This document shows positions 3,359-30,121 of a stretch of 46,382 nt of DNA, piece by piece. The first letter of the stretch is position 1, and each line of letters begins with the position of its first letter. Source of the stretch: Bacillota bacterium (GTDB lineage: Bacteria; Bacillota; Limnochordia; Darwinibacteriales; Darwinibacteriaceae); the NCBI GenBank assembly GCA_012837925.1, contig DUQE01000202.1, positions 1-46,382 of the forward strand. The letters run 5' to 3'. The notes under the pieces were generated by a model. That model was not told where the DNA came from. It saw nothing but the letters and a program-made list of their open reading frames with translations, and did not search any database. The position numbers and the translations under genes are program-made.

Positions 3359-3392
3359 TTGGTTGGTTCTATTGTAACAAGGGGGACGGGTG

Positions 3393-6036: not shown

Positions 6037-6048
6037 GAGGTGTTATCG

Positions 6049-14988: not shown

Positions 14989-14997
14989 GCAAAACAG

Positions 14998-15025
14998 GGA
15001 GGAGTTCCCCGCGGGGATCTCCTCC
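14998..15025 (+). other. Intercistronic hairpin after the Liv binding-protein gene
   Basis: GGAGGAG (14998-15004) pairs with CTCCTCC (15019-15025), with inner TCCCC/GGGGA. No T-run follows, so it is likely a 3'-end stabiliser or partial attenuator that lets the binding protein be made in excess of the permeases. Confidence 0.6.
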
Positions 15026-15066
15026 TCATTACAGCCTGAAAAGTCATAGAACTACGAGGTGGTAAA

Positions 15067-15948
15067 ATGTTACAGATGGTGTTACAGAACTCTATCTCAG
15101 GCATGGCCATGGGACTGCTCTATGGAGTGATTGGCATTGGAGTATGTCTTTTTTGGCAGACAACGGGATTAATCAACTTCGCTCACATTTCTTCTGCAAT
15201 GTTAGGAGCCTACTTTTTCTACACCTTTTACGTCATGTGGAAGCTACCAATGGTGATCTCCTTTATTTTGGCCATTGGATTAGTCGCCCTATATGGTGTC
15301 TTCATTTTGCGAGGGGTCATTTACAAACAAATCATGGGAAGAAAAGGTGGTCGCCTAGAGTTTATTGTCGCCACCATGATGTTGAACATCTTCCTTCTGA
15401 ATCTTGTTGTTGTTCTGTGGGGTGGCGTTCCCTATCCCTTCCCCAACATTTTTGGTAGCCCCATGAACCCTCTGAGAATTGGCGGTATCGTTGTTCAATA
15501 CCACTCAGTCTGGGTCTTGGTTTTCACCGGTGCACTCGTCATCGGATTGAACTTCTTCTTCAAGAGGACTCTTACGGGTAAAGCGTTAAGGGCTACGGCT
15601 CAAAACAAAGATACGGCTTCTTTGATGGGAATTGGCGTTGAAAAGATGACGGCTCTTTCTTTTGCGCTAAGTACTGGTATAACGGCTATTGCGGGAATCT
15701 TGCTCGCACCAATCTATTTTGTCTCTGTAGAGTTGGGCGGAGGAATTATCGGAATCAAAGGTTTTGCCTCTGCAGTAATTGGCGGACTCACCAATCCATT
15801 TGGCGCTCTCGTCGGCGGTCTTTTGATCGGTTTGGCAGAAAACTTCTCCGTCTTTTACATTTCTTCTTCCTATCGAGATGTCATTACCTTTGTGTTGCTG
15901 GTGTTTTTCCTTATCGCTAGACCGCAAGGGCTTTTCAAGAAAATGTAG
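15067..15948 (+). CDS. Liv-type ABC transporter permease (LivH family)
   Basis: A 293-residue integral membrane protein with about 8 helices. It has LivH features: LQNSISGMAMGLLYGVIGIGVCLFW at the N-terminus, TTGLINFAHISSAMLGAYFFY, the RATAQNKDTASLMGIGVEKM cytoplasmic coupling region, and GIIGIKGFASAVIGGLTNPFGALVGGLLIG near the end. It pairs with the next gene to form the channel. ATG preceded by GAGGTGG. The 78 bases separating it from the binding-protein gene hold the hairpin above. Confidence 0.9.
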   Translation: MLQMVLQNSISGMAMGLLYGVIGIGVCLFWQTTGLINFAHISSAMLGAYFFYTFYVMWKLPMVISFILAIGLVALYGVFILRGVIYKQIMGRKGGRLEFIVATMMLNIFLLNLVVVLWGGVPYPFPNIFGSPMNPLRIGGIVVQYHSVWVLVFTGALVIGLNFFFKRTLTGKALRATAQNKDTASLMGIGVEKMTALSFALSTGITAIAGILLAPIYFVSVELGGGIIGIKGFASAVIGGLTNPFGALVGGLLIGLAENFSVFYISSSYRDVITFVLLVFFLIARPQGLFKKM

Positions 15949-15966
15949 GTTTGGGGGGATAGTGTT

Positions 15967-16938
15967 ATGCAAAGGAGAAAAATCGGTTTTTTGATCATAG
16001 CCTTACTGATCGTTCTCTATCCACTAGTTGTCAGCGACTCCTACAAGGTTTATATCATGAACCGCAGTTTGATCCATGCCATCATTGCCATGGGCTTGGT
16101 TACACAAGTGGGATTTGCTGGACAGATTTCTTTAGGACATGCGGCATTTTACGGAATTGGCGCTTATACCTCGTCTTTAACGGTGTTGAAACTGGGTTTT
16201 CCAATAGGGTTAGGCTTTCTGGCCGCCATCCTCTTGTGTGTCTTGTGCAGCGTGTTTCTAAGTGTTCCATCATTTAAGCTCAGTGGATTCTTTCTTTCCC
16301 TTACGACCATTGCCTTTGGGCACATCGTTTGGGTGATTATCGTGAACTGGCAGAGTTTGACGAACGGTGCACTAGGCGTTTTCGGCATTCCGAGCTTGAG
16401 CCTGTTTGGGACTCGATTTAACAATACGCATTACTTCTATTTGTTGGTGGTCACCATTGGACTCCTTTATTTCTTTATTAGGAGAATTACCAATAGCTTT
16501 ATTGGCCGAGCCTTTATGGCCATGCGCGATGACGAATTGGCCGCAGAATGTAGTGGAATCAATACCCGGTATTTCAAACTGCTGGCCTTTGGTATTTCCG
16601 CAGGATTTGCCGGATTAGCGGGTGCCTTTTATGCCCATCTTTCAGGTTTTATCAGTCCTGAGAGTTTTCGCTTCGCAGAATCTACGAAGTTCGTTGGTAT
16701 GGCAGTAACCGGTGGTTTACGGCACCTCTTAGGCGGCATTGTTGGTGCTCCAATTGTTACATTCTTACCAGAGATGTTCCGTTTTCCAGGCTGGGAGACC
16801 TACTATATGATGGCTGCAACGTTTGTCATTCTGATGATCGTCGTATTCATGCCTGATGGACTTGCACCCTTGTTGGAAAAAGGGTTCAACAAGATCTTTG
16901 GCGAGCGAAGCACTGGTAAAGGTGGTAGTAGCGAATGA
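15967..16938 (+). CDS. Liv-type ABC transporter permease (LivM family)
   Basis: A 323-residue membrane protein of the LivM group: HAIIAMGLVTQVGFAGQISLGHAAFYGIGAYTSSL near the N-terminus, GRAFMAMRDDELAAECSGIN as the ATPase-coupling region, and FAGLAGAFYAHLSGFISPESF. It is the partner of the LivH-type subunit. The ATG is preceded by GGGGGGAT. Its stop overlaps the following ATPase start by 4 bases. Confidence 0.9.
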   Translation: MQRRKIGFLIIALLIVLYPLVVSDSYKVYIMNRSLIHAIIAMGLVTQVGFAGQISLGHAAFYGIGAYTSSLTVLKLGFPIGLGFLAAILLCVLCSVFLSVPSFKLSGFFLSLTTIAFGHIVWVIIVNWQSLTNGALGVFGIPSLSLFGTRFNNTHYFYLLVVTIGLLYFFIRRITNSFIGRAFMAMRDDELAAECSGINTRYFKLLAFGISAGFAGLAGAFYAHLSGFISPESFRFAESTKFVGMAVTGGLRHLLGGIVGAPIVTFLPEMFRFPGWETYYMMAATFVILMIVVFMPDGLAPLLEKGFNKIFGERSTGKGGSSE

Positions 16939-17708
16939 ACATTTTGGAAACGAAGGGCTTAACAAAATCGTTTGGTGGAGTTACGGCCAACTCAAACCTG
17001 GACATCTGCATCAAGAAGGGGTCTGTTACGGGTTTGATCGGGCCCAACGGATCGGGAAAAACGACGTTCATTAACGTAGTCTCGGGTGTCTATCCTGCAA
17101 CGAGCGGTAAAGTCATTTTTGACGGTAAGGATATTACCAGTCTTGATAAGTACAAGATTGCCCGGGCGGGAATTGCTCGCACCTTTCAAACCATTCGTCT
17201 GTTTGAACGCTTAAGCGTGCTCGAAACCGTCCTTGTAGCCCGACATGCAAGTTATGGTGCTTCGATCTGGGATGCAGTGTTGTCTACATCGCGATTGCGC
17301 GCAGCTAATGCCAGGGAGGAAGCAAGGGCAAAAGAACTCTTGGAGATCGTTGGTCTGGGCAAGCAACATTACGATGTGCTGGGAAACAGCCTTCCTTATG
17401 GTTACCGTCGTAGTCTAGAGATTGCTCGGGCACTGGCTCTTGAACCCTCGCTACTACTTCTGGATGAACCAGCAGCAGGTATGAACCGTGAGGAGTTCAA
17501 CTTTTTGCAGGAAATCATTCAAAACGTAAAGCAACAGGGTATCACGATCCTTTTGGTGGAACACACCATGGAACTGGTCGAAGCGGTCGTGGATCATTGC
17601 GTCGTCCTAAACTACGGCCAGAAGCTGACTGAAGGACCGTTCTGCGATTGCGAATCGGATCCGCGAGTCATTGAAGCGTATTTAGGGAAGGAGGAGGCCG
17701 AGTGTTAA
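16935..17708 (+). CDS. Liv-type ABC transporter ATP-binding protein (LivG family)
   Basis: A 257-residue ABC ATPase. Walker A is GPNGSGKTT (~residues 36-44), the Q-loop region ARTFQTIRLFERLSVLE is typical of LivG, the signature helix is LPYGYRRSLEIARALA (a variant of LSYGQQR normal for LivG), Walker B is LLLLDEPAAGMN, and the switch histidine is in LLVEHTMELV. It starts within the LivM stop (ATGA) and overlaps the LivF-type gene by 7 bases, so the cassette is tightly coupled. Confidence 0.93.
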   Translation: MNILETKGLTKSFGGVTANSNLDICIKKGSVTGLIGPNGSGKTTFINVVSGVYPATSGKVIFDGKDITSLDKYKIARAGIARTFQTIRLFERLSVLETVLVARHASYGASIWDAVLSTSRLRAANAREEARAKELLEIVGLGKQHYDVLGNSLPYGYRRSLEIARALALEPSLLLLDEPAAGMNREEFNFLQEIIQNVKQQGITILLVEHTMELVEAVVDHCVVLNYGQKLTEGPFCDCESDPRVIEAYLGKEEAEC

Positions 17709-18424
17709 AGATCAAGAATCTGTCTGTTTCTTACGGTGATATTCCAGCGCTAAAGAAGGTCAGTTTAGAGGTTAAACAAGGAGATGTAGTCTCCGTTCTG
17801 GGCGCGAATGGCGCGGGCAAAACCACACTGTTGAAGACCATTTCGGGTCTACTTCGCGGTGACTCCGAAAGCCAAATTGAGTTCATGGGCGAGCCGATTC
17901 ACCAGCTTCCACCGAATGAAATCGTTAGGCGAGGCATCGTTCATGTGCCTGAAGGCCGGCAAGTCTTCGCCGAACTCAGTGTTCTCGAGAACATTGAAGC
18001 TGGAAGTTACTCCAGGGACGATCGCAGCAATCTCAAGCGCGAGATCGCTGAGTGTTTCGAGATGTTTCCCGAGTTGATCGGTAAGGAGAAGCAGTTAGCT
18101 GGCACATTAAGTGGAGGAGAACAACAAATGGTGGCTACAGCGAGAGCACTTATCGCCAAGCCGCTCCTGCTAATGGTGGACGAGCCTTCTATGGGTCTTG
18201 CTCCTGTTGTCGTGAAACGCATTTTTGGTCTGCTACGCGAGTTTGTTGCTAGGGGCATCACCATTTTGCTGGTTGAGCAAAACGCCTATATGTCCATGGC
18301 TGTCAGTAATTATGCTTATATCATTGCCCAGGGTGAAATGGTCCTGCACGGATCCGTGGAGGATTTGAAGAAGGACGAGGGCGTCAAAGATTCCTATTTA
18401 GGTGTGAAGAAGAAAGCGAACTAA
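17702..18424 (+). CDS. Liv-type ABC transporter ATP-binding protein (LivF family)
   Basis: A 240-residue ABC ATPase, partner of LivG. GTG start with GGAGGAG 6 bases upstream. Walker A is GANGAGKTT, the signature is LSGGEQQMVATARAL, Walker B is LLMVDEPSMGLAP and the switch region LLVEQNAYMSMAVSNYAYII is characteristic of LivF. It completes the five-gene importer. The dehydratase gene begins 18 bases later, linking import to metabolism on one transcript. Confidence 0.93.
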   Translation: MLKIKNLSVSYGDIPALKKVSLEVKQGDVVSVLGANGAGKTTLLKTISGLLRGDSESQIEFMGEPIHQLPPNEIVRRGIVHVPEGRQVFAELSVLENIEAGSYSRDDRSNLKREIAECFEMFPELIGKEKQLAGTLSGGEQQMVATARALIAKPLLLMVDEPSMGLAPVVVKRIFGLLREFVARGITILLVEQNAYMSMAVSNYAYIIAQGEMVLHGSVEDLKKDEGVKDSYLGVKKKAN

Positions 18425-18442: not shown

Positions 18443-20122
18443 ATGGAATATCGTAGCCGAAACATTGTTTCTGAAGCACCGCAACGTGCCCTTCTCAAGG
18501 GCGTTGGTCTTACAGATAAAGAGATGGAACAGCCCATTATTGGAATTGCGAACTCGTGGAGTGAGCTCTCCCCAGGGCACATCCATCTGCGCGAAATCAG
18601 CGAGTATGTAAAAAAAGGCATTCGCTATGCAGGTGGAACGCCTTTGGAATTCAACACAATTGCACTCTGTGACGGACTGTCTGGGGCGTTTGTAAAGAAC
18701 AAGGATGCCCAGCGTTACACTCTGCCCTCCAGAGATATCATTGCTGATTCGGTTGAAGTTTCTATCGAATCGAACCAGCTCGATGCCATGGTTCTTATTG
18801 GTACCTGTGACAAGATTGTTCCCGGCATGCTCCTGGCTATGGCCAGGCTTAATATCCCGGCCATCTTCATCCACGGCGGACCAATGTTGGCCGGAAATTA
18901 TAAAGGAGTCTCCATCTGTGGTGGGTCCACAGAACTCATTGAGGCCGCAGGAGCCTATCACGCGGGCAAGATGTCCAAAGAAGACCTAGACGGTTTTATC
19001 GAGAATGCGTGTCCCACACCTGGAGCCTGTGGTTCTATGGTGACGGGTAACAGTATGGGGATCATCATGGAGGCTTTGGGATTAACCTTACCCAAGGGAT
19101 CAACCATTCCTGCTCAGGATCTCAGGCAGCTCCGCCTAGCCGAAGAGGCGGGTCGCGCCATTGTCGACCTTTTGAAAAAGAACATCCGTCCCCATGACAT
19201 TATTAATGAAAAGTCCATTGACAATGCCATTCGGGTACTCGCAGCAACCGGCGGGTCCACCAACTGCGTACTGCATCTCGCAGCTTTAGCTCAAGAGATG
19301 GAGCTGGACATTGATATTCTAGGCAAGATCGACGCGTTGAGTAGTTCTACCCCGCATCTTGCTCCCATGACACCATCTGGAACGTTTACGGTTCCTGAGC
19401 TCAATGAGGCGGGCGGGCTTCCGGCTTTGATGCGTGAAATGCAATCACTGCTAAATCTCGATGTGATGACAGTGACGGGCCAGACCCTCGCTGAGAATAT
19501 TGCCAATGCAGAGATTCTCGATTCTCGGATTATTCGTTCCATGGACAATCCCTTCCATGCGCAAGGTGGCGTGGCAGTCTTGTATGGCAATCTAGCTCCC
19601 GATGGGGCCGTTGTGAAACAGTCGGCCGTCTCGGAAGGTATGATGGTGCATTCAGGCCCCGCCCGCATCTTTGAGTCCGAAGAGGAAGCAGTAGAAGGTA
19701 TCTATGCTGACCGTGTACAGGCCGGCGATGTCCTGGTTATCCGCAATGAAGGACCCAAGGGCGGACCTGGCATGCGAGAAATGACGACAGCTATTGGTGC
19801 CCTCTGGGGTAAGGATCTGGCGAGTTCTGTCGCACTAGTCAGTGACGGTAGGTTCTCCGGTGCCATTCGTGGTCCCGCTGTAGGTTATGTTTCGCCGGAG
19901 TCAGTGGAAGGGGGACCCCTCGCTTTGCTCCAGGAGGGAGACATTGTTTCCATTGACATTCCAAACCGCACCATCAATGTAGATCTTACGGATGAAGAGC
20001 TAGCGGCCCGGCGTGCCAAGTGGCAGCGACCGCCCTTTAAGATTAGGAAAGGTATTCTTCGCCTCTATGAACTCTTTGCGACCTCAGCAAACAAAGGGGC
20101 CGTTCTAAAAATCGATCGGTAG
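18443..20122 (+). CDS. IlvD/EDD-family Fe-S dehydratase, probably not canonical dihydroxy-acid dehydratase
   Basis: A 559-residue dehydratase that should convert a 2,3-dihydroxy acid to a 2-keto-3-deoxy acid. Fe-S ligands typical of the family are C122 (TCDKIVPGM) and C190/C196 (NACPTPGACGSM); SPGHIHLRE resembles the E. coli-type IlvD with an oxygen-sensitive cluster. ATG preceded by AGGAGGG. Two features differ from IlvD by eye. The metal-binding loop usually read as DDGIAMGH.GM is here CDGLSGAFVKNKDAQRYTL, longer and without the GH pair. The C-terminal GRFSGGT.G..IGH block reads GRFSGAIRGPAVGY. With no ilvC or ilvBN nearby and racemase genes next door, a sugar-acid or other hydroxy-acid substrate is more likely than valine/isoleucine precursors. 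Confidence 0.85.
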   Translation: MEYRSRNIVSEAPQRALLKGVGLTDKEMEQPIIGIANSWSELSPGHIHLREISEYVKKGIRYAGGTPLEFNTIALCDGLSGAFVKNKDAQRYTLPSRDIIADSVEVSIESNQLDAMVLIGTCDKIVPGMLLAMARLNIPAIFIHGGPMLAGNYKGVSICGGSTELIEAAGAYHAGKMSKEDLDGFIENACPTPGACGSMVTGNSMGIIMEALGLTLPKGSTIPAQDLRQLRLAEEAGRAIVDLLKKNIRPHDIINEKSIDNAIRVLAATGGSTNCVLHLAALAQEMELDIDILGKIDALSSSTPHLAPMTPSGTFTVPELNEAGGLPALMREMQSLLNLDVMTVTGQTLAENIANAEILDSRIIRSMDNPFHAQGGVAVLYGNLAPDGAVVKQSAVSEGMMVHSGPARIFESEEEAVEGIYADRVQAGDVLVIRNEGPKGGPGMREMTTAIGALWGKDLASSVALVSDGRFSGAIRGPAVGYVSPESVEGGPLALLQEGDIVSIDIPNRTINVDLTDEELAARRAKWQRPPFKIRKGILRLYELFATSANKGAVLKIDR

Positions 20123-20140
20123 TAAGGAGAGGTGAAAGTC

Positions 20141-21406
20141 GTGGTACAAACACTAGAACTACCCTACGGAAAGAATTCTTTACGTTTTCTTCTGGACGCC
20201 AAAGCGCAAGTTGCGCAGGCGACCCTCAATACTCTACCCGAGATTGATTTGGCTGGTGAACTGATCGCGGCCCTAGATGACCCCATTCATTCCCAACCTT
20301 TGGAGCAGTTGGCCAAAGGGCTGGAGTCGGTGCTCATTCTCTGCGATGACAATACGCGGCCAACGCCGGCTCATCTGATTCTGCCCTCCGTTCTTCAACG
20401 ACTGGACTTGGCGGGTGTAAAGCGCGAACACATTAAAATCCTGATTGCCGGTGGTTCGCACAGGCCCATGACCGAAGAAGAGATGATCGCGAAGGTAGGC
20501 GAAGAAGTCTACCGTTCCGTTCAGGTTCTCAACCATGAGTTTGATAACAAAGACCGGCTCGTGTACCTTGGCGAAACCAAGAACGGCACACCGATCTGGA
20601 TCAACAAGTTGGTTTTTGATGCTGATCTCGTGCTAGGAATTGGAGCCATCGTGCCCCATCGCTACTGTGGTTGGGCCGGTGGGGGAAAAATCGTTCAACC
20701 AGGAGTATGCGGTGAAGAGACGACCATTGCCACGCATTTGATGATCACAAAAGATGAGTCTATTACCTTAGGTAACCTCGACAATCCTGTGCGAAAAGAG
20801 ATCGATGACATTGCACTGCGTGCCGGTTTGAAGTTCATTGTCAACGCGATTCTAGATGCTAACCAAAGGGTTGTAGGACTTGTGGCTGGCGATCCTATTC
20901 AAGCACACCGCATGGGTGTAGAAATTGCCAAGAAGGTCTACGGTGTTCCCCTTCAACCCGCCGATTTGGTCCTGATCAGCTCGTTTCCTGCCGATCTAAA
21001 CTTCTGGCAGGCCGGTAAAGCGCTTTATTCTGCTGATCTTGCTGTTAAGCCAGGAGGTACCATTGTGTTGGTTACCCCAGCGATTGAAGGACCGGGAGAA
21101 CACCCGGAGTTCTTAACACTCATGGCCAAGAGCTATGACGAAATCATCGCTCTTCTCGATAACAACGAAGTCGAAGACCAGATCGGTGCAGCAGGAGCCC
21201 TGGCGGTTGCCATCGTGAAGCAACGGGCTAAGGTGATCATTGTCAGCGACGGGATCACCGATGAGCAGGTTGAATCGATGGGCTTTACGCGCTACAATCC
21301 CGAGGATATACAGACGGCGATTTCCCACGCTTTTAAGGGTTTGGGAGACAATCCTACTATCAATGTCATTCACGAAGGTGCCGAAATTCTACCACTTATT
21401 AACTAA
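20141..21406 (+). CDS. LarA-type nickel-pincer 2-hydroxyacid racemase/epimerase, copy 1
   Basis: About 421 residues. The GTG at 20141 is preferred; an in-frame GTG at 20132 is only 2 bases from AAGGAG. LarA (lactate racemase) uses a nickel-pincer nucleotide bound to a lysine. Here the key positions are conserved at almost the L. plantarum numbering: H107 (GGSHRP), H173 (IVPHRYCG), K183 (AGGGKIV, the pincer-linked lysine) and H199 (IATHLM, nickel ligand), plus DDNTRP in the first domain. So it should be active, given cofactor from LarB/C/E encoded elsewhere. LarA homologues act on many 2-hydroxy acids, including lactate, malate, hydroxyglutarate and gluconate, so the substrate is open. Copy 2 follows in tandem. 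Confidence 0.87.
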   Translation: MVQTLELPYGKNSLRFLLDAKAQVAQATLNTLPEIDLAGELIAALDDPIHSQPLEQLAKGLESVLILCDDNTRPTPAHLILPSVLQRLDLAGVKREHIKILIAGGSHRPMTEEEMIAKVGEEVYRSVQVLNHEFDNKDRLVYLGETKNGTPIWINKLVFDADLVLGIGAIVPHRYCGWAGGGKIVQPGVCGEETTIATHLMITKDESITLGNLDNPVRKEIDDIALRAGLKFIVNAILDANQRVVGLVAGDPIQAHRMGVEIAKKVYGVPLQPADLVLISSFPADLNFWQAGKALYSADLAVKPGGTIVLVTPAIEGPGEHPEFLTLMAKSYDEIIALLDNNEVEDQIGAAGALAVAIVKQRAKVIIVSDGITDEQVESMGFTRYNPEDIQTAISHAFKGLGDNPTINVIHEGAEILPLIN

Positions 21407-21430: not shown

Positions 21431-22711
21431 ATGGATGTCAATTTAAAGTACGGTCGGCAAACCATGCAAGGGATACTGCCCCTGGCCAACGTGGAAGAAC
21501 TCGTTCCCCAAGCGTATGAAAAGGAAGTAGGGGACATCTCTGCACTCTTAAAACACAAGCTCAGCCATCCGACCAACGGTATTGGGCTTGATCAGATTCT
21601 GCAGCCCGGGGAGAAGGTTGTCGTTGTGGTCAGTGATATCACCCGTACTTGGACGAGAACGAGGGACTACTTGCCTACCATAGTGGAGTACGTCGAAGCT
21701 TGTTCCATTGCCCCAAGTGACATCTCTATCTTAATCGCTCGTGGTTGCCATCGTAGTCAAACCGAGGATGAGTTCAAGCAAATTGTCGGCGAGGAGATCT
21801 TTGCCAAGTACGAAGTCGTGGAGCATGATGCGGATAACCCGGACGGACTGGTCTATGTGGGTACAACAACACGCAACAATCCAATCTATGTCAACAAACG
21901 TGTTGTGGAGGCCGACAGGGTAATTCTGACAGGTGGAATCATCCATCATGCCATGGCAGGCTTTGGGGGAGGACGAAAGAGTATTTTGCCCGGTGTATCG
22001 GGGCGGAAGACGGTGGAAAACAACCATCTCAATTGCCTCCATCCTACGGATATTGACATCAACCCAGCTATTGGCTCAAACAGGCTACAGGGCAATCCTC
22101 TTCACGAAGACATGACGGAAGCAGCAGCTTTTGTTAACCCGGACTTCTTAGTCAACGTAGTTTTGGATACGAAAAACGAGATTGTGGATTTTTTTACCGG
22201 CCATTGGTTCGAGGCTTGGGCTGAAGGTTGTGCGTTGGTCAACGAGATTTATGGAGTTCCCATTGACGAACAGGCCGATCTCACGGTGGCAAGCTGTGGT
22301 GGCTTTCCCTATGATATTTCGTTGTACCAGGCTAGTAAGACATTTTATAATGCAGCCCAGGCAACCAAAGTTGGGGGAACGATCATCCTTCTAGCCCAGG
22401 CCGAAGACGGTCCCGGATCACCCGATTTCTTTGGGTGGTATGACAATGAAACATCAGAAGAGTTCTTTACTAACTTGAAGGCGGAGTTCACAATTCCCGG
22501 ATACTTGGCGTATCTAATCTATGTCATTGCCCAAGAGCGGAAGGTATACGTAGTAACAGATTGTGCAGCTGAGCAGGTGGCAAAAATGGGTGTAATCCCC
22601 GTTGCGAACCTGCAAGAGGCCATTGATCAGGCGTGCGCTGATTTGGACGGTGACGCCAAGGTGTTTGTTATGCCCGAGGGAGGATATACATTCCCCATGA
22701 TCAAGGCATAG
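21431..22711 (+). CDS. LarA-type nickel-pincer 2-hydroxyacid racemase/epimerase, copy 2
   Basis: A 426-residue paralogue of the preceding gene, clearly diverged rather than a recent duplicate. The catalytic set is again present: H107 (ARGCHRS), H173 (IIHHAMAG), K183 (GGGRKSILPGVSGRK, very close to authentic LarA) and H199 (NNHLNCLHP). The region around the first-domain DHTRP motif is SDITRTW, suggesting a different substrate pocket from copy 1. It begins 24 bases after copy 1; the ribosome site is weak. Two active-looking racemases side by side suggest either two stereocentres or two related substrates in one pathway, or a hetero-oligomer. The DRE-TIM enzyme gene follows after 19 bases. Confidence 0.87.
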   Translation: MDVNLKYGRQTMQGILPLANVEELVPQAYEKEVGDISALLKHKLSHPTNGIGLDQILQPGEKVVVVVSDITRTWTRTRDYLPTIVEYVEACSIAPSDISILIARGCHRSQTEDEFKQIVGEEIFAKYEVVEHDADNPDGLVYVGTTTRNNPIYVNKRVVEADRVILTGGIIHHAMAGFGGGRKSILPGVSGRKTVENNHLNCLHPTDIDINPAIGSNRLQGNPLHEDMTEAAAFVNPDFLVNVVLDTKNEIVDFFTGHWFEAWAEGCALVNEIYGVPIDEQADLTVASCGGFPYDISLYQASKTFYNAAQATKVGGTIILLAQAEDGPGSPDFFGWYDNETSEEFFTNLKAEFTIPGYLAYLIYVIAQERKVYVVTDCAAEQVAKMGVIPVANLQEAIDQACADLDGDAKVFVMPEGGYTFPMIKA

Positions 22712-22730: not shown

Positions 22731-23972
22731 ATGACGAAACTTAGAGAGCTCAAGGATATGCCCATGCAGGGTCAACCTTATTTTGGCGACAAGAAATGGG
22801 TTTCGCCCGTGAACTTTGAGGTTGCAGGTCCCGAGACGTCAAAGTCAATTTACATCCACGATGTTACCTTGCGCGACGGCGAGCAGACTTGTGGCTTAAA
22901 CTGGACAGAAGATGAAAGAGTAGAGATCGGTGTCGCCCTTAATGATCTGGGCGTGAAGAGAATTGAAGTGGGCATGCCCGTCGTTTCAGAGGATATTCGA
23001 AGAGCGATTAAGCGCCTTGTAGAAATGAACCTGCAAGCCGACATTGTTACCTTTGCCCGGGCAAAGAAAGAAGACATTGATTATTCGGTGGAGTGCGGAG
23101 TGAAATCCATTGTGGTTGAGCACGCAGTCAATCCATACACCTGCCAATATGCCTACGACGTTGATACAGAGCAGCTCATCAAACGGATCGTAGATCACAT
23201 CAAGTATGCTAAAGATTGCGGGTTGAATACCACATTCATGGGCTGGGACGTTACCAGAGCAAGCCTTGACTACGTAAAGAAGGTCTACTCTGCGGTGGTC
23301 GAGCAGGCCCAACCTGAAGCCATTGTCTATACAGACAGTTTTGGCGTGGCATCTCCTATGGCTGTCTATTTGGCCATTTCCGAACTTAAGAAACTCGGTG
23401 TACCGGTGGAGTTCCATGTTCACAACGAGTTTGGCATGGCTATGGGTTCGGTCTTGGCTGCTGTTTATGCTGGTGTTGACGGAATCCACTCCTCCATCAA
23501 TGGTTTGGGCGAGAGAACGGGTAATGTGGCAACGGAAGAGGTCGCTGCAGCTTTAGAGATTCTTTTGAATGTCAAGTCTGGTGTCGACTTGAAGAAGATA
23601 GACAGAGTGACCAAGATGGTGGAGCAAGTCACCGGAATTGTGATTCCACCCAACAAACCTGTAACAGGGAAGAGGCTTTTCTGGTTAGAGTCTGGTGTAG
23701 TCGTTCATGCCAAGGAAAAATTGGAAAAGAGCGGGATTCCCTCGGCCATGACACCATATCTGCCCGAGTTGACGGGGCGCGAAGATATCGAGATCGTCTT
23801 GGGCGGTTCGAGTGGCAAGGCCAGCGTTCAATACTACCTGGAGAAGCGCGGCGTTGAAGTCACCGATGAGCAGCTCGATACGCTGGTAGATAAGATTAAA
23901 GAAAAGGGTCGTGTCAAGCGCGATGTACTCAGCAAAGAAGACTTCGACGCGATTCTTGCTGAGGTCCTGTAA
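22731..23972 (+). CDS. DRE-TIM metallolyase-family enzyme (homocitrate/isopropylmalate synthase-like), altered C-terminus
   Basis: A 413-residue HMGL-like TIM barrel. The metal and substrate motif is DVTLRDGEQT (R48, D49), followed by IEVGMPVVSEDIRRA, metal histidines H229 and H231 (FHVHNEFGMA) and GLGERTGN near 258-265. These place it with homocitrate, citramalate and isopropylmalate synthases. After the barrel there is a short communication-type region but no full LeuA regulatory domain. The usual FTHESGIH segment, which supplies a catalytic histidine in synthases, reads FWLESGVVVH, so both histidines appear lost or shifted. It may therefore work as a lyase or aldolase, or on an unusual substrate. 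AGGAGG precedes the ATG, and the stop overlaps the butyrate kinase start by one base. Confidence 0.8.
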   Translation: MTKLRELKDMPMQGQPYFGDKKWVSPVNFEVAGPETSKSIYIHDVTLRDGEQTCGLNWTEDERVEIGVALNDLGVKRIEVGMPVVSEDIRRAIKRLVEMNLQADIVTFARAKKEDIDYSVECGVKSIVVEHAVNPYTCQYAYDVDTEQLIKRIVDHIKYAKDCGLNTTFMGWDVTRASLDYVKKVYSAVVEQAQPEAIVYTDSFGVASPMAVYLAISELKKLGVPVEFHVHNEFGMAMGSVLAAVYAGVDGIHSSINGLGERTGNVATEEVAAALEILLNVKSGVDLKKIDRVTKMVEQVTGIVIPPNKPVTGKRLFWLESGVVVHAKEKLEKSGIPSAMTPYLPELTGREDIEIVLGGSSGKASVQYYLEKRGVEVTDEQLDTLVDKIKEKGRVKRDVLSKEDFDAILAEVL

Positions 23973-25063
23973 TGTCGTCTCGCACCAGTTACCGCGTTTT
24001 AGCGATAAATCCAGGGTCAACGTCGACCAAAATTGGTCTGTACGAAGACGAAACGTGCGTTTATACAAAGGATATCAAACACGGTGTAGCAGAGCTGTCC
24101 GGGTTTGATCTGGTGATCGATCAGCTAGACTATCGAGAAAGTGTTGTTCGTCAGACACTAGCCGAAGCCGGCATCGAGATCGATTCACTCGATGCCATTG
24201 CTGCCCGAGGAGGACGGCTTCGGCCGATTCCGAGCGGTGTGTATGCGGTGAACAATGCGATGCTGCATGATGCCCAGGTTGGCTTTCAGGGTGATCACGC
24301 CTCAAATTTGGCCTGCATAATCGGGTGGCGCTTGGTCGCGGGAACAGACATACCTGTGTATGTTGTGGACCCGGTATCCGTGGACGAAATGTGGCCTATG
24401 GCCAAAGTATCGGGTATACCTGAGATCCAGCGGACAAGCCTTTCTCATGCCTTGAACATGAAAATGGTGGCTAAAATGGCGGCAGAAAAGCTTGGCAAGT
24501 CGTATGCAGACAGCCGCCTCATAGTCGCTCACTTAGGCGGAGGAGGGTCTGTGAGCGCTCACCTTGGTGGCAAGATGGTGGATCTCTACAACTCAGACAA
24601 GGAAGGTCCCATGGCCATTGAACGCTCAGGAGGCATCCCGTCGATTGAACTGATGGAGCTCTGCTTTTCGGGTTTATCCAAACAAGAAGTCCTCAAGAAG
24701 CTCGCTGGCCAAGGGGGCATCTACGCTCATTTGCGCACCAAGGACCTCAGGGAAGTGGAGGCCATGATTGACCGCGGCCATGTGGAGGCGACCTTAGTTC
24801 TAGACGCTTACTGCTACCAGGTGTCCAAGTACATTTGTGCCATGGCTGCTTGTTTTGAGGGTGTTGTTGACGCTATCTGCATTAGCGGTGGTATTGCCAA
24901 CTCCCAAGTCGTACTCGAAAAGATCATTTGCCGCGTCAAGTTTATAGCCGATGTGATGGTCTTCCCTGGTGGGGAAGAACTTGATGCGTTGGTCCTTGGT
25001 GTCTTGGCGGTCCTCAAAGGACATGAGGACGTCTCGATCTATCCGCACGGAGGAAAGAAGTAG
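23972..25063 (+). CDS. buk: Butyrate kinase-family acyl-phosphate kinase
   Basis: A 363-residue member of the acetate/butyrate kinase branch of the ASKHA fold; transfers phosphate from an acyl-phosphate to ADP, yielding acid and ATP. Butyrate-kinase features are LAINPGSTSTKIGLYED, ARGGRLRPIPSGVYAVN, HASNLACIIGWRLV, VDPVSVDEMW, IVAHLGGGGSVSAHLGGKMVD and ICISGGIANS. Length and motifs fit Buk rather than acetate kinase. The start overlaps the preceding stop by one base (TAATG), so it is made with the DRE-TIM enzyme. No phosphotransbutyrylase (Ptb) is nearby; PduL in the same cluster could supply the acyl-phosphate. The natural acid could be butyrate, isobutyrate, propionate or another short acid. 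Confidence 0.92.
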   Translation: MSSRTSYRVLAINPGSTSTKIGLYEDETCVYTKDIKHGVAELSGFDLVIDQLDYRESVVRQTLAEAGIEIDSLDAIAARGGRLRPIPSGVYAVNNAMLHDAQVGFQGDHASNLACIIGWRLVAGTDIPVYVVDPVSVDEMWPMAKVSGIPEIQRTSLSHALNMKMVAKMAAEKLGKSYADSRLIVAHLGGGGSVSAHLGGKMVDLYNSDKEGPMAIERSGGIPSIELMELCFSGLSKQEVLKKLAGQGGIYAHLRTKDLREVEAMIDRGHVEATLVLDAYCYQVSKYICAMAACFEGVVDAICISGGIANSQVVLEKIICRVKFIADVMVFPGGEELDALVLGVLAVLKGHEDVSIYPHGGKK

Positions 25064-25141: not shown

Positions 25142-26329
25142 ATGTTCTCTTCGATTCAGAACCATGTTCGGGAAATTACCCCCCGCATGATCGAGTGGCG
25201 TCGCTTCTTTCATGAGTACCCAGAGTTGGGTTTTGAAGAAGTTAAGGCTGCTGCAAAGATTAGCTCGTTATTGACAGAGTGGGGGTTTGAAGTAACCTCA
25301 AACGTAGGCAAGACAGGCGTGATCGGCCTATTAGATAATGGTAGTGATTTTACTTTGGGTCTGCGGTTTGATATGGATGCGTTGCCCATTACGGAGGAAA
25401 CCGATCTTCCGTTTCAATCCAAGCATTCTGGAGTAATGCATGCTTGTGGCCATGATGGTCATATGAGCGTGGGTTTGGGCGTCGCGTATGTCTTGGCTCA
25501 ACTCAAAGACAGGATTCCAGGAAACATCAAGATGATCTTTCAGCCGGCAGAGGAGGGTTTGGGGGGAGCCAAGGCCATGATTGCTGATGGGGTCCTGGAC
25601 AATCCTCGGGTGGATTCCATTTTGGGTCTGCACATTTGGCCTGAACTCGATTCTGGAGTGGTTGGCGTACGCAAAGGCACAATCATGGCGGCAGCGGATC
25701 GTTTTAACATCTCTTTGTATGGTTATGGTGGACATGGCGGACAACCTCACTTGGCTGTGGATCCCATTATGATCAGTGCAGAGGTTATTCAAGGTCTGCA
25801 AAAAATCGTCAGCCGTGAAGTGGCTCCCACAGAACCAGTGGTGATTTCGCTTGGTTCTGTACATGGAGGGACCGCATTTAACATCATTCCCAATCGAATG
25901 GAACTGACAGGAACCATTCGTACAGCCGATGAGACTATACGCGAACACGTTCTAAAGCGCATTGAAGAGAAGGTTCAAGCAATAGTGAAAGGCAATAATG
26001 CCAACTGTGATATTGCGTTTGAACGCTGTTTTTATCAGACGTATAATGATGGTTCCCTCGTTGACGCACTTCGCTCCACAGTCTTGGATTTGTGGGGTGC
26101 AGAAAAGCTGGTGGATCTCAAGGCACCCACAATGACGGGTGAGGATTTTTCTGAATACCAGCGCATCATTCCTGGACTCTATTTCTTTGTGGGCACCAGA
26201 AATGAGGGCAGGGGACTTACCTATCCGATCCATCACGAGAAGTACAGTATTGATGAAGATGTGTTGGGTTTTGGCGTAGAGGTAATGGTTAACGCAGCGT
26301 TGAATGTCTGTAAGGAGGGAAGACGCTAG
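25142..26329 (+). CDS. M20-family amidohydrolase (N-acyl-amino-acid hydrolase / hippurate hydrolase type)
   Basis: A 395-residue metallo-amidohydrolase of the M20D group. Zinc and catalytic motifs in order are FDMDALPITEE, MHACGHDGHMS (metal cysteine and histidine), QPAEEGLGGAKAMI (catalytic and metal glutamates), LGLHIWPELDSG, and the C-terminal PIHHEKYSID. A dimerisation insert starts near FNISLYGYGGHGGQPH. Relatives cleave N-acyl or aryl amides of amino acids, for example N-acetyl amino acids, hippurate and indoleacetyl conjugates. There is no signal peptide, so it acts in the cytoplasm. Its place in the cluster suggests that the imported compound may be an amide conjugate whose acid or amino part enters the pathway; this is inference. 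GGGAGATGG precedes the ATG. Confidence 0.9.
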   Translation: MFSSIQNHVREITPRMIEWRRFFHEYPELGFEEVKAAAKISSLLTEWGFEVTSNVGKTGVIGLLDNGSDFTLGLRFDMDALPITEETDLPFQSKHSGVMHACGHDGHMSVGLGVAYVLAQLKDRIPGNIKMIFQPAEEGLGGAKAMIADGVLDNPRVDSILGLHIWPELDSGVVGVRKGTIMAAADRFNISLYGYGGHGGQPHLAVDPIMISAEVIQGLQKIVSREVAPTEPVVISLGSVHGGTAFNIIPNRMELTGTIRTADETIREHVLKRIEEKVQAIVKGNNANCDIAFERCFYQTYNDGSLVDALRSTVLDLWGAEKLVDLKAPTMTGEDFSEYQRIIPGLYFFVGTRNEGRGLTYPIHHEKYSIDEDVLGFGVEVMVNAALNVCKEGRR

Positions 26330-26343
26330 AGAGGAGAGAGTGC

Positions 26344-28020
26344 ATGCCGATCACGATTAGCGAAGCGTTACAGCTACCACCGCTCGAGGGGGCTCAAGTG
26401 CTTACCGGAGAGGTCGGACTCGAGCGTACCATTCGTGCCGTTACCGTCATGGATGCGCCAGATATTGTGAACTGGCTGACTGGCAATGAGTTTGTGATCA
26501 CGAGCGGATACAGTGTGAAGGATAATCCCCTGTCACTTGAGACTCTGGTTACTGATCTGGCTAGGATTAATGCAGCAGGGCTGGGAATTAAGCTCCGCAG
26601 GTTCATTGATGAAATTCCACAGAGCATCGTAGATTTGAGTGTGTCACTCAGTCTGCCCATCATTGTCATTCCATTCGGGGCTCCATGGGTGGACATTATC
26701 AACAGTATTCATGAAGAGATCATGCACCGCCAGTCGCAACTCATTTTGCAGGGTGAGAAAATCTATCGGAAGTTTAGCCTGTCCTTGTTGGAGCGAGGTG
26801 GCTTTGCTGAAATCTGCCAGGTTCTTTACGACCTCATTGAAAGTCCTGTGATGATCGTCGATTACCAGCGCAATCTTTATTGCCACGGGTGGGGAGACGA
26901 GTTGACCCAGGTACAAAAAAGGGTCGAAATGCTCATGAACACGTGGGACTGGAGAATAGACGGACATTACTCTGCTGAAGTGGAAGACTCGAAAGTAACG
27001 TGGATCAAGCTTGAAGACACTCCTTATGAGGTTTGTGTCTGTCCTACCATTGTGGAGAACGAAATCAACGGTTATATCGTTGCCCTAGAACGTGAGTCGG
27101 CCCACAAGGATCTCTATTATGAGATCGCCATAGAGCAGGCGGCCATCATGTGCGCGCTACGTACGATGATTACGTTTAACACCAAAGAAGTGCACAGACG
27201 CTTCAAGAATCGGTTTGCACAGGATTTGCTTTCCTGGAATTTTCGAGACATCGCCTACGCAAGAAAGCAAGCTGCCTACGTTGATTGGGTCTTGCGGGAC
27301 AGCTACAGTGTTGTGGCTATCTCCATAGACGACCTCGGTTCACACTATGTTGAACGTGGCGCCGATGAGGGCTATGTCCAATCGAAGCTGGAACTTCTTT
27401 ATAAGACGATCACACAATTTGACAAGACGAGCAATCTTGGACTCATCATTCATGAAAATAGCGATAATTTGTTGGTTCTAAAACCACAGGATGTTTATGA
27501 CTCTGAAGAACGCGTCAAAGAGCAGTCCATGGACTTTGCCAAGGCTCTGCAAGAAAGGGTCAACGCGTCGTTGGGAGACTTGACGGTATCCATAGGTATA
27601 TCGCGCTTCAATCGTGATATTACGAAACTTGGTGAGGGACAAAAACAGGCGACCAGTGCGCTAAAGTTTGGTCGCATGCTATCGAAGGGCAACAGCATAT
27701 GGCACTATGATGATCTGGGAATCTATCGGATCTTGTGCGAATTTGAGAAAGAGGCAGAACTACAGGGGTACTACGATGATACCATTGCCAAACTGGAGGT
27801 TTACGACAAAGAACATAAGGCAGAACTCGTGAAGACGTTGAACGCTTACTTTGACAATGATTGCAGCTTACAAAAAGCAGCAGATGAGCTGTTCATTCAC
27901 TACAACACGATGCGTTATCGCATTGAGCGCATCAACGAGGTGACTGGTCTTGATGTTTTTAATAGTAACGACCGTTTGAACTTACAGGTGGGCTTGAAAA
28001 TAGGCCAGTTGCTGGAATAG
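26344..28020 (+). CDS. PucR/CdaR-family transcriptional regulator
   Basis: A 558-residue regulator. Residues ~8-125 are the PucR N-terminal domain (ALQLPPLEGAQVLTGEVGLE, WLTGNEFVITSGYSV). The middle carries a sensor-like region (SPVMIVDYQRNLYCHGWGDE, ~170-260) and a CdaR-type degenerate GGDEF-like segment (~300-440; LTVSIGISRFNRD). The C-terminal PucR helix-turn-helix is LNAYFDNDCSLQKAADELFI followed by HYNTMRYRIERI. PucR/CdaR proteins control purine, sugar-acid (CdaR: glucarate, glycerate) and amino-acid degradation, usually as substrate-responsive activators. Encoded in the middle of the cluster on the same strand, it is the likely local regulator. AGAGGAGAG precedes the ATG. Confidence 0.9.
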   Translation: MPITISEALQLPPLEGAQVLTGEVGLERTIRAVTVMDAPDIVNWLTGNEFVITSGYSVKDNPLSLETLVTDLARINAAGLGIKLRRFIDEIPQSIVDLSVSLSLPIIVIPFGAPWVDIINSIHEEIMHRQSQLILQGEKIYRKFSLSLLERGGFAEICQVLYDLIESPVMIVDYQRNLYCHGWGDELTQVQKRVEMLMNTWDWRIDGHYSAEVEDSKVTWIKLEDTPYEVCVCPTIVENEINGYIVALERESAHKDLYYEIAIEQAAIMCALRTMITFNTKEVHRRFKNRFAQDLLSWNFRDIAYARKQAAYVDWVLRDSYSVVAISIDDLGSHYVERGADEGYVQSKLELLYKTITQFDKTSNLGLIIHENSDNLLVLKPQDVYDSEERVKEQSMDFAKALQERVNASLGDLTVSIGISRFNRDITKLGEGQKQATSALKFGRMLSKGNSIWHYDDLGIYRILCEFEKEAELQGYYDDTIAKLEVYDKEHKAELVKTLNAYFDNDCSLQKAADELFIHYNTMRYRIERINEVTGLDVFNSNDRLNLQVGLKIGQLLE

Positions 28021-28046: not shown

Positions 28047-28358
28047 ATGAGTGAAGTCCTTATCTTGGATCAAACGAAAGATAATGTTGCGGTCGCACTG
28101 CAGACAATAGCGAACGGAGAACGCGTTACAGTCCTTAGAAATGGTGATGAGCTCTCCTTTCATGCCCTAGAGGAGATTCCTGCGGGTCACAAACTTGCAC
28201 TCGTTGCTATCGAGAAGGATCAGACTATTATGAAATATGGATACTCCATTGGTCGCGCCACCCAGAGCATTCAAGCTGGTCAGTTAGTCCATGCCCATAA
28301 TGTGCGAAGTATACGTGGGAAAGAACTCCTAGAGGAGGGATCTGCACATGATGCGTAA
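28047..28358 (+). CDS. UxaA-family dehydratase/lyase small subunit (SAF domain)
   Basis: A 103-residue stand-alone SAF domain, equivalent to the N-terminal part of altronate dehydratase (UxaA). Motifs are DNVAVALQTIANGERV, EEIPAGHKLALVAIEKDQTIMKYG and IGRATQSIQAGQLVHAHNVRS, in which the histidine near the end is typical of the family. It acts with the next gene's product, which carries the main catalytic part. Split small and large subunits also occur in (R)-sulfolactate sulfo-lyase (SuyA/SuyB), so that alternative must be kept. GGAGGCGG lies upstream. The last 11 bases overlap the large-subunit gene. Confidence 0.87.
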   Translation: MSEVLILDQTKDNVAVALQTIANGERVTVLRNGDELSFHALEEIPAGHKLALVAIEKDQTIMKYGYSIGRATQSIQAGQLVHAHNVRSIRGKELLEEGSAHDA

Positions 28359-29520
28359 CACGTTTATGGGGTACCGTAATGCCGATGGTTCTGCAGGGAT
28401 CCGTAATCATGTGGTTGTGTTGCCCATGGTCATCTGTGCAAACTCGGTGGTACAGCAGATTGAGAAACGGGTTCCCGAAGTGATAGCCATTCCACATACC
28501 CATGGCTGTACCTTGGATCCCAGGAGCAATCAAGAAATGACCGATGTTTTAGGCGGTATAGGCAGTAATCCTAACGTATCGGCCATAATCCTGGTCGCCT
28601 TAGGTTGTGAGTCGGTCATTATGGATGATGTGGCGAAGATCATAGCAAGAACGAAGAAGCCCGTGGAAACACTCGTGATCCAGCAACTAGGAGGAACGAA
28701 GAAGACCATTGCTAAGGGCGTGCAAATCGCTCGGGCCCTGTTAAGAGACGCGAACAAGCGTGAGCGCCAGCCTATACCCTACTCCGAACTCATCGTGGGC
28801 ACAGAGTGTGGGGGATCCGATGCCTACTCAGGTTTATCGGCCAACCCAGCCGTGGGAGTGGCCAGTGATATCCATGTCGATCATGGTGGGACAGTAATCT
28901 TATCTGAAATTACGGAGTTTCTTGGGGCAGAGATGATTTTGGCGGATCGATGCGCGAGTCCAGAGGTTCGCGACAAGTTACTTGATTTGGTGGCCTGGAC
29001 TGAACAAAGCCTAGCGAGCCTTGGATCCTCTAGTGTGGCCGATATTACTCCAGGTAATCTAAAGGGAGGCCTTACTACCATCGAAGAAAAGTCCTTAGGC
29101 TGCATCAAAAAGGGCGGCAGTCGGGCGGTGCAAGAGGTGGTGGGTTATGGGGAAAGACCAACGAAGCGTGGTTTAGTTGTGATGGATACGCCCGGCCACG
29201 ATATTGAGTCGATGACCGGAATGGCTGCGGGTGGAGCCCATCTTATTGTGTTTACAACCGGACGCGGAACCCCAACCGGAACGCCGATTTGCCCCGTAAT
29301 CAAGGTTTCGAGCAATACAACATGTTACCTGAACATGCAGGATAATATCGATCTTGATGCCGGTTTAGTCCTAACCAAAAAAGAGACGTTGGACACTATG
29401 GGTCAGATCATCCATGACGAGATGATCCAAGTTGCTTCGGGGAAACGGACCAAAGCCGAGCTCTCAGAAAACCGCGAGTTTGCCCTGCGTCGCTATGGCA
29501 GTGATTGTATTATCTATTGA
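28348..29520 (+). CDS. UxaA-family dehydratase/lyase large subunit (altronate dehydratase-like)
   Basis: A 390-residue protein matching the C-terminal catalytic part of UxaA/GarD enzymes, which remove water from sugar acids with an Fe2+ or Fe-S centre. Family blocks are GYRNADGSAGIRNHVVVLP, IPHTHGCTLD, LVALGCESV, VGTECGGSDAYSGLSANPAVG, VILSEITEFLGAE, MDTPGHDIESMTGMAAGGAHLIVFTTGRGTP and PVIKVSSN. GAGGAGG lies 8-9 bases before the ATG, inside the small-subunit gene. Substrate candidates are an altronate- or galactarate-like sugar acid, or sulfolactate if it is a SuyB. With the IlvD-type enzyme this gives the cluster two different dehydratases. PduL follows immediately. Confidence 0.88.
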   Translation: MMRNTFMGYRNADGSAGIRNHVVVLPMVICANSVVQQIEKRVPEVIAIPHTHGCTLDPRSNQEMTDVLGGIGSNPNVSAIILVALGCESVIMDDVAKIIARTKKPVETLVIQQLGGTKKTIAKGVQIARALLRDANKRERQPIPYSELIVGTECGGSDAYSGLSANPAVGVASDIHVDHGGTVILSEITEFLGAEMILADRCASPEVRDKLLDLVAWTEQSLASLGSSSVADITPGNLKGGLTTIEEKSLGCIKKGGSRAVQEVVGYGERPTKRGLVVMDTPGHDIESMTGMAAGGAHLIVFTTGRGTPTGTPICPVIKVSSNTTCYLNMQDNIDLDAGLVLTKKETLDTMGQIIHDEMIQVASGKRTKAELSENREFALRRYGSDCIIY

Positions 29521-29551
29521 TGCTAAAGGAGGAGTCTCTATGCTAAAGGAG
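29520..29551 (+). repeat. Direct repeat ATGCTAAAGGAG around the PduL start
   Basis: ATGCTAAAGGAG occurs at 29520-29531 and again at 29540-29551. The second copy is the true PduL start, and the AAAGGAGG of the first serves as its ribosome site. The first ATG overlaps the preceding TGA stop and opens only an 8-codon frame ending at 29546. Confidence 0.8.
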
Positions 29552-30121
29552 TATTTGGGAGAGGTACCCATAGGAGTATCCAATCGCCATGTGCACATTT
29601 GCCAAAAGGATCTAGAAGCGTTGTTCGGTCGCTCTGAGCTCACCGTGATGAAGCCACTCTTTCAGCCTGGTCAGTTTGCCGCTGAAGAGAAAGTAACATT
29701 GGTGGGCCCGAAACGCTCCATTGAGGGAGTTCGCATCTTAGGACAAATGCGGGACTATACGCAGGTGGAGATTTCGAGGACAGATTCTTATATACTGGGA
29801 GTCGAACCAGCCCTGCGTGATTCCGGGGATCTAGAGGGAACACCTGGAATTATCCTGAGAGGACCCAAGGGCGAGATCACACTTGATCGAGGTGTGATTA
29901 TTGCGCGGCGCCATATCCATATGACCGAGGCCGAAGCAGAGCAGTTCGGAGTCAAGGATAAAGACCTCGTGAACGTTGTGGCAGGTGGCGACAGACCCAT
30001 TGTCTTTTGTGATGTCCTGGTCCGCGTGAACAACGAATATGCCTTAGAGATGCATGTTGATACGGACGAGGCCAATGCTGGATTCGTGGTGAACGGACAA
30101 CAACTAAAAGTGTATCGTTGA
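29540..30121 (+). CDS. pduL: PduL-type phosphotransacylase
   Basis: A 193-residue phosphate acyltransferase, converting acyl-CoA and phosphate to acyl-phosphate and CoA; unrelated to Pta/Ptb. It has the two PduL beta-barrel repeats with zinc histidines in PIGVSNRHVHIC and VIIARRHIHMTEAEAEQFG, and the conserved ending LEMHVDTDEANA. The start at 29540 follows AAAGGAGG by 6 bases; a longer frame into the upstream gene is rejected. There is no N-terminal encapsulation peptide, and no microcompartment shell gene occurs in the window, so it should be a free cytosolic form. Together with butyrate kinase it forms a complete acyl-CoA to acid plus ATP module. Confidence 0.93.
   Translation: MLKEYLGEVPIGVSNRHVHICQKDLEALFGRSELTVMKPLFQPGQFAAEEKVTLVGPKRSIEGVRILGQMRDYTQVEISRTDSYILGVEPALRDSGDLEGTPGIILRGPKGEITLDRGVIIARRHIHMTEAEAEQFGVKDKDLVNVVAGGDRPIVFCDVLVRVNNEYALEMHVDTDEANAGFVVNGQQLKVYR

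Follow-up and report, generated by a model that had tools for sequence, protein, structure and literature searches.

What does a protein do that has the barrel motifs of homocitrate and isopropylmalate synthases, carries no histidine at the usual catalytic position, and is encoded between two racemase genes and a butyrate kinase gene? The question is raised by an open reading frame in the window, i.e. the whole stretch of 46,382 nucleotides analysed here (contig DUQE01000202.1 of assembly GCA_012837925.1, from a Bacillota bacterium of the Darwinibacteriaceae). The frame has an ATG start and its product is 413 amino acids long (Table 1). All four motifs named in the initial annotation were found in this product, namely RDGEQ at residues 48-52, HVHN at 229-232, GLGERTGN at 258-265 and FWLESGVVVH at 317-326. 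Pfam assigned an HMGL-like domain (PF00682, 201.9 bits) and the post-HMGL domain HCS_D2 (PF22617, 30.2 bits against a cut-off of 27). The HMGL-like barrel, the Arg48-Asp49 pair and the metal ligands His229 and His231 place the protein in the DRE-TIM metallolyase superfamily.

Profile comparison with the synthases and HMG-CoA lyase, which the initial annotation had proposed, left the protein below all curated cut-offs. No curated NCBIfam model reached its cut-off; synthase models scored highest, the top one giving 332.4 bits against a cut-off of 517 and an archaeal-group model 303.6 bits against 484.75. The models of 4-hydroxy-2-oxovalerate aldolase (MhpE/DmpG) gave 69.7 against 286 bits and 78.6 against 229, and that of HMG-CoA lyase 46.4 against 246. 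Ten relatives of the window protein likewise fell below every synthase cut-off in NCBIfam. The closest solved relatives by phmmer were homocitrate synthase 6ktq and methylthioalkylmalate synthase (MAMS) 6e1j. A search of a plasmid collection gave only remoter matches (27-35% identity), 4 of the 35 being reused as synthase references. A frameshift, sequencing or assembly error was ruled out, because orthologues of equal length from other genomes carry the same residue losses.

An AF2 model of the 413-residue protein was built from an input of 16 related sequences (mean pLDDT 86.5, pTM 0.84), with residues 1-3, 13-19 and 22-35 placed at low confidence. When Foldseek's top 1000 chains were ranked by VIA-align, the best match was 6ktq (Z 42.2, 2.1 A rmsd over 374 residues, 33% identity), and further matches were 6e1j (Z 40.5), isopropylmalate synthase 4ov9/4ov4 (36.8) and Leptospira citramalate synthase (36.3). 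For the aldolase 4lrs (Z 32.4) and HMG-CoA lyase 2cw6 (Z 31.2) the match was limited to the barrel. In the predicted model the overall architecture is thus of the synthase type (homocitrate, isopropylmalate, methylthioalkylmalate), since synthases outrank these barrel-only matches. The alignment covers residues 24-413; the C-terminal part, for which the initial annotation had proposed a structure prediction, aligns to the synthases, and the domain that holds the CoA site in those enzymes is retained.

To read the active site, we used MAMS as the reference, in which Asp90, His288 and His290 are described as binding the metal, Arg89 and Thr257 as binding the 2-oxo acid, and Gln93 as lying near the CoA thiol (PMC11532901). 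The likely base is His388, stacked on Tyr399, which in turn bonds Glu227; activity was mostly lost in mutants of R89, E227, H388 and Y399, with some activity left in E227Q, H388N and Y399F (PMC11532901). Residues were counted over 44 aligned sequences, 34 without this Glu-His-Tyr triad and 10 of synthase type. Among the triad-less rows Arg48 and Gln52 were found in 34/34 and Asp49 in 33/34, and the metal ligands His229 and His231 were present in all 34 as well as in all 10 synthases. Ser203 aligns with the 2-oxo-acid-binding Thr of MAMS.

The remaining synthase residues are gone from the whole clade. The beta-5 Glu, replaced by Trp172 here, occurs in 9/10 synthases (the exception being one NifV row with Ala) and in 0/34 triad-less rows. 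Both histidines of the F-x-H-E-S-G-I-H segment, the first at Leu319 and the catalytic one at Val324 (MAMS His388), were counted in 10/10 against 0/34, and the Tyr that is Met340 here in 10/10 against 1/34. The initial annotation had noticed the missing catalytic histidine, and this reading holds for every triad-less row; the partner Glu and Tyr are further losses that it had not listed. It had also named another histidine at the catalytic position as the finding that would speak against it, and the phmmer alignment to 6ktq does bring His326 under the catalytic His by opening a gap in the segment. Position 326 is His in only 4 of the 14 closest-branch rows, Asp in 7 and Gln in 3, and a shifted catalytic His326 was ruled out on this count (Asp or Gln in 10/14). 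Since the position varies in this way, His326 is no conserved replacement, and the gap placement lacks family support.

Other residues are conserved in the triad-less proteins. Glu130, at the end of strand beta-4, was present in 34/34 triad-less rows and 0/10 synthases, and is followed by His131 in 14/14 rows of the closest branch and in 0/20 of the other triad-less rows. His43 (32/34 against 0/10), His253 (31/34 against 2/10) and Asn28 (34/34 triad-less rows) are further marks. A pattern ahead of the barrel, W/F/Y-V/I/T-S/T/A-x-x-N, was found in 37/37 triad-less rows that have an N-terminus and in 0/8 synthase rows. In MAMS, Val182 is reported to be one of the residues that surround the 2-oxo-acid side chain (PMC8468904). 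It aligns with Val128 of the window protein, and as Glu130 lies two residues further on the same strand, this Glu probably faces the pocket.

These changes belong to a whole uncurated clade rather than to one odd protein, as far as the aligned sequences indicate. In a maximum-likelihood tree of 44 rows, a branch supported at 99/97 separated the 34 triad-less sequences from the rest, and the closest branch (14 rows) had support 100/99; five partial sequences (L014, L025, L008, L031 and the second fragment in L030) and MhpE, too distant, were excluded. The window protein lies inside this clade and does not cluster with the synthases tested; clustering with proven homocitrate or citramalate synthases is what the initial annotation had named as a refutation. 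Among 299 Bacillota genomes sampled, 32 gave a hit to a wider-clade query with an E-value no higher than 1e-75, and in 25 of these a triad-less protein was confirmed by sequence. The remaining matches include G004 and G070, which have the full triad and belong to the type-2 Re-citrate synthase lineage, assigned by eye from the primer in PMC12016533 and, for G004 (locus L064), also from an isocitrate-dehydrogenase-like neighbour. Among the open-licence papers that a search for DRE-TIM metallolyases listed, none dealt with this clade, judged by title and start of abstract.

Table 1. Features of the gene cluster and of the triad-less protein in the window, in order of position.
Feature	Positions	Strand	Basis
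LivKHMGF-type ABC importer, five genes, head of the cluster	13864..18424	+	LivK by Peripla_BP_6; other four by sequence and synteny
IlvD-type dihydroxy-acid dehydratase	18443..20122	+	TIGR00110, 667.8 bits (cut-off 618)
LarA-like nickel-pincer 2-hydroxyacid racemase/epimerase 1	20132..21406	+	PF09861, PF21113; below all NCBIfam LarA cut-offs
LarA-like racemase 2, nearest to LarAH10 type	21431..22711	+	NF052525, 515.7 bits (cut-off 540)
Gene of the triad-less DRE-TIM protein	22731..23972	+	PF00682, PF22617; AF2 model; 6ktq match
N-terminal clade motif W-V-S-P-V-N, residues 23-28	22797..22814	+	Motif comparison; low-confidence AF2 region
RDGEQ: Arg48, metal ligand Asp49, Gln52	22872..22886	+	Equivalent to MAMS Arg89, Asp90, Gln93
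Glu130, clade-conserved acid at end of strand beta-4	23118..23120	+	Residue counts
Trp172, at the synthase catalytic-cluster Glu (MAMS Glu227)	23244..23246	+	Residue counts
His229-Val-His231, metal ligands retained	23415..23423	+	Residue counts
L319-E-S-G-V-V324-V-H326, both synthase His gone	23685..23708	+	Alignment
Met340, at the synthase Tyr (MAMS Tyr399)	23748..23750	+	Residue counts
Butyrate kinase	23972..25063	+	TIGR02707, 427 bits (cut-off 289)
M20 amidohydrolase	25142..26329	+	TIGR01891, 388 bits (cut-off 153.75)
PucR-type regulator	26344..28020	+	PF07905, PF13556
SAF-domain small subunit of split altronate-dehydratase-like enzyme	28047..28358	+	PF08666
Large subunit of the same enzyme (galactarate/altronate dehydratase family)	28348..29520	+	PF04295, PF20629
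PduL-type phosphotransacylase, start codon uncertain	29531..30121	+	PF06130, 254 bits

In the window the gene order is LivKHMGF, IlvD, LarA1, LarA2, DRE, butyrate kinase, M20, PucR, SAF, UxaA large subunit, PduL and ECF-S, and the start codon of the kinase overlaps the stop codon of the DRE gene by one base. The ECF-type S component that closes the cluster (30141-30668) might import a cofactor or vitamin. The large dehydratase subunit has galactarate dehydratase 6u7l as its only PDB relative, and PduL occupies the slot held by Ptb in related loci. Members of the LarAH10 group reportedly accept hydrophobic 2-hydroxy acids as well as gluconate/mannonate (PMC11770544), and the genome context of LarA homologues has been studied earlier (PMC7583248). 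Butyrate kinase is mentioned in the main text of neither paper; nor is isopropylmalate in the main text of the former or isopropylmalate synthase in that of the latter. Elsewhere in the window, a serine-dehydratase-alpha-like protein (12314-13591) is encoded upstream of the Liv importer, a FecCD-type permease gene lies within 3390-6957 in what by eye resembles an iron-chelate importer cluster, and a radical SAM protein of the lysine-2,3-aminomutase family (37526-38776) adjoins a sugar-type ABC binding protein (38917-39852).

The same partners recur around the relatives. The closest branch comprises 17 distinct loci (18 with L014, in which the gene is cut short by the contig end); among them, L022 and L023 come from two Cryosericum species and have the same DRE score. 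A SAF/UxaA dehydratase pair was present at all 17, butyrate kinase at 15 (it was missed in L018 and L034, near contig ends) and a phosphotransacylase at 16, of which 14 have Ptb and the other two, the window and L013, have PduL. LarA racemases were found at 11/17, an M20 enzyme of the same type at 12/17, PucR at 9/17, IlvD at 4/17 and a xylose-isomerase-like epimerase, nearest to IolO (197 bits against 300), at 9/17. With the same queries, none of these neighbours was found at L064 and L065 of the synthase lineage, a small control with shorter flanks. This dehydratase, phosphotransacylase and kinase neighbourhood supports the catabolic setting that the initial annotation had read from the position between racemases and butyrate kinase. 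Searches of open-licence papers gave none that combines homocitrate synthase with butyrate kinase and altronate dehydratase, none that combines altronate dehydratase with phosphate butyryltransferase, and only an unrelated one for HMGL-like proteins with aldolase and racemase.

Across the 20 other loci of the wider clade, enzymes of UxaA, IlvD or TtdAB type, which dehydrate 2,3-dihydroxy acids or are related hydro-lyases, were found at 5, a 2-hydroxyacid dehydrogenase at 7 and a zinc alcohol dehydrogenase at 6, and 3 had no marker. By profile, a SucCD-like ligase lies beside the DRE gene in L030 and L072, a CoA-transferase III in L031, an acylating SauS-like aldehyde dehydrogenase in L048/L075, an acetate/propionate kinase in L071 and, in L067, an ATP-grasp_5 protein, a type that occurs in acyl-CoA synthetases. 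The DRE gene of L071 belongs to a different branch, and its locus repeats the Liv importer, kinase, SAF/UxaA, LarA and DRE set. In the loci read, inspection by eye revealed no leuB/C/D-like partners. As separate observations, PanB (ketopantoate hydroxymethyltransferase) and an iron alcohol dehydrogenase adjoin the triad-less DRE in L033 and L079, in clusters that look catabolic; a phosphosulfolactate-synthase-like (ComA) gene lies near that of L067 (152 bits against a cut-off of 280); and IlvD also adjoins a triad-less DRE of a different branch in L074.

The host genome (94.46% complete, 202 contigs) contains the window protein as its sole HMGL-domain match, and in the L013 genome, too, the DRE protein is the only such match (the same search found the family in 14/14 control genomes); ilvC gave no match in the host genome (control 14/14 genomes). 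As far as this draft genome shows, a part in making leucine or lysine, or a NifV role, is improbable and was rejected, since the only HMGL-domain protein is the triad-less one and ilvC was undetected. The single IlvD is located in the DRE operon; this canonical enzyme, without a detectable ilvC or leuA-like gene, has apparently been retained only for catabolism. Subunits of a 2-oxoacid oxidoreductase and, on contig 47, a second butyrate-kinase-like gene are also encoded. LarC (PF01969) had no match in the draft host genome despite the two nickel-pincer racemase genes, and matched in only 4 of the 14 genomes tested, most of which have a LarA-like gene at the locus read. The nickel-pincer cofactor may be scavenged or made differently, within the limits of draft genomes.

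Judged from these residues, the window protein is unlikely to be an acetyl-CoA-condensing synthase, and the doubt raised in the initial annotation about the usual condensation is strengthened by the loss of both His, the Glu and the Tyr. Our preferred reading, tentative and at somewhat less than an even chance, follows the lyase or aldolase suggested in the initial annotation: the protein would be a C-C lyase that depends on a metal, most likely an aldolase, and its substrate would be the 2-oxo acid that the dehydratases supply. In the scheme that follows, the direction, the substrate class and the aldol chemistry are inferred, as are the part played by Glu130 and the origin of the acyl-CoA. 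The Liv importer would bring in a 2,3-dihydroxy (sugar-type) acid, or the M20 enzyme would free the acid from an amide; the LarA pair would epimerise it at C2; and the split altronate-dehydratase-like enzyme or IlvD would dehydrate it to a 2-oxo-3-deoxy acid. With a divalent metal, and with Glu130 as the candidate base, the DRE protein would then cleave this acid by a retro-aldol reaction to a smaller 2-oxo acid and an aldehyde. One fragment would be converted to an acyl-CoA, from which phosphotransacylase and butyrate kinase would yield the free acid and ATP. Sulfolactate was considered as a substrate by analogy, from the likeness of the split SAF/UxaA subunits to SuyAB, although galactarate dehydratase is the only PDB relative found. 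Further candidates considered were pantothenate/pantoate, in view of the M20 enzyme here and PanB at L033 and L079; branched acids such as apionate and 2,3-dihydroxyisovalerate, in view of IlvD; and inositol-derived keto-acids, in view of the IolO-nearest xylose-isomerase-like neighbour.

In favour of an aldolase, R48, D49, Q52, H229 and H231 are retained while the triad and the second His are lost. The aldolase reading also accounts for LarA, UxaA, IlvD and the epimerase together, because the dehydratases, by family, make 2-oxo-3-deoxy acids, and such acids are natural substrates of metal-dependent aldolases. Against it stand the retained C-terminal CoA-site domain and Gln52, whose MAMS equivalent is near the CoA thiol, and the ranking of synthases as top sequence and fold matches, with known aldolases lower (Z 32.4 against 42.2). 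The link from an aldolase to the kinase is indirect, because no aldehyde dehydrogenase that would make the acyl-CoA was seen in the closest branch. The CoA-linked enzymes that flank wider-clade members are explained more directly by a CoA-dependent lyase, the main rival, which we consider less likely yet worth serious weight. Such an enzyme would cleave a CoA thioester (or a 2-oxo or dioxo acid plus free CoA), yielding an acyl-CoA beside a 2-oxo acid and leaving the thioester bond intact, and the acyl-CoA would go directly to phosphotransacylase and butyrate kinase for ATP. It would suit the closest-branch core (DRE, dehydratase pair, phosphotransacylase and butyrate kinase), which has no other acyl-CoA-making enzyme, and the CoA- or acyl-phosphate-linked neighbours of L030, L072, L031, L048/L075, L071 and L067. 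However, the His that handles the alpha-carbon of acetyl-CoA is gone and unreplaced there, so that another proton donor would be needed, and the UxaA/IlvD-type dehydratases would be left without an obvious role if the 2-oxo acid were the product.

A distinct DRE-TIM class is also conceivable, albeit improbable, in which the pocket where synthases join acetyl-CoA to a 2-oxo acid would have been rebuilt around Glu130 for C-C cleavage with free CoA as acceptor. A sugar-type acid, once dehydrated (to a 2,4-dioxo or 2-oxo-3-deoxy acid, say), would then directly give a 2-oxo acid and an acyl-CoA. We regard as similarly doubtful a synthase condensing acetyl- or acyl-CoA to an alkylmalate-like product with a relocated base, e.g. 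Glu130/His131. Its nearest fold and sequence relatives are synthases, it retains the C-terminal domain with the CoA site of those enzymes, and MAMS H388N and E227Q keep some activity as described in PMC11532901; but four synthase residues are lost clade-wide, the window protein and 10 relatives stay below every synthase model cut-off, and the clusters look catabolic and ATP-yielding, with no leuB/C/D-like partners recognised by eye. Least probable by far is that the protein is a Re-citrate synthase of type 2 or some other known synthase-group member under a wrong name, an idea that draws on the report that the name homocitrate synthase is often wrongly given to Re-citrate synthases (PMC12016533). 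The type-2 lineage of L064 and L065 has the whole triad and lies outside the triad-less clade in the tree, and the type-2 identity was rejected on these two points. The Re-citrate synthase of the Clostridium kluyveri type presumably differs from the window protein too.

Since the clade proteins score best on isopropylmalate and homocitrate synthase models, automatic annotation probably names them synthases. If a lyase reading is true, such names are wrong, and genomes like that of the host are credited with biosynthetic steps that they do not have. The operon also suggests a hitherto undescribed way in which anaerobes derive ATP from hydroxy- or sugar-acids, and a shift from synthase to lyase, if true, would be a clear case of an active-site base moving within one fold. 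Should cleavage with free CoA be true, anaerobes would gain ATP by way of phosphotransacylase and butyrate kinase where known sugar-acid routes waste the bond in hydrolysis or simple aldol cleavage.

Compared with known systems, the window protein is most similar to homocitrate synthase 6ktq (Sulfolobus acidocaldarius, catalytic domain), with which it has in common the fold including the C-terminal helical part, the Arg, the metal Asp/His/His and the Gln; it differs by the absence of the catalytic Glu, His, Tyr and second His and by the additional N-terminal motif and Glu130. MAMS 6e1j and isopropylmalate synthase 4ov4 are alike in fold (Z 40.5 and 36.8) and in the equivalents of Arg89, Asp90, Gln93, His288 and His290, whereas MAMS Glu227, His388 and Tyr399 are Trp172, Val324 and Met340 here. 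The type-2 Re-citrate synthase (HM1_2993 lineage) belongs to the same DRE-TIM synthase fold family but carries all three triad residues and branches apart from the triad-less proteins. With HMG-CoA lyase 2cw6, itself a degradative lyase, the barrel (Z 31.2) and the metal site are held in common, but the Cys-containing loop of that family reads GLGERTGN in the window protein. The aldolases MhpE/DmpG (4lrs and 1nvm; Z 32.4 and 31.8 over about 250 residues) are alike in barrel, metal site and the proposed type of chemistry, but their C-terminal part differs, and RDGMHA of E. coli MhpE, in which the His of the RDG-x-H segment is catalytic, is replaced by RDGEQT without that His.
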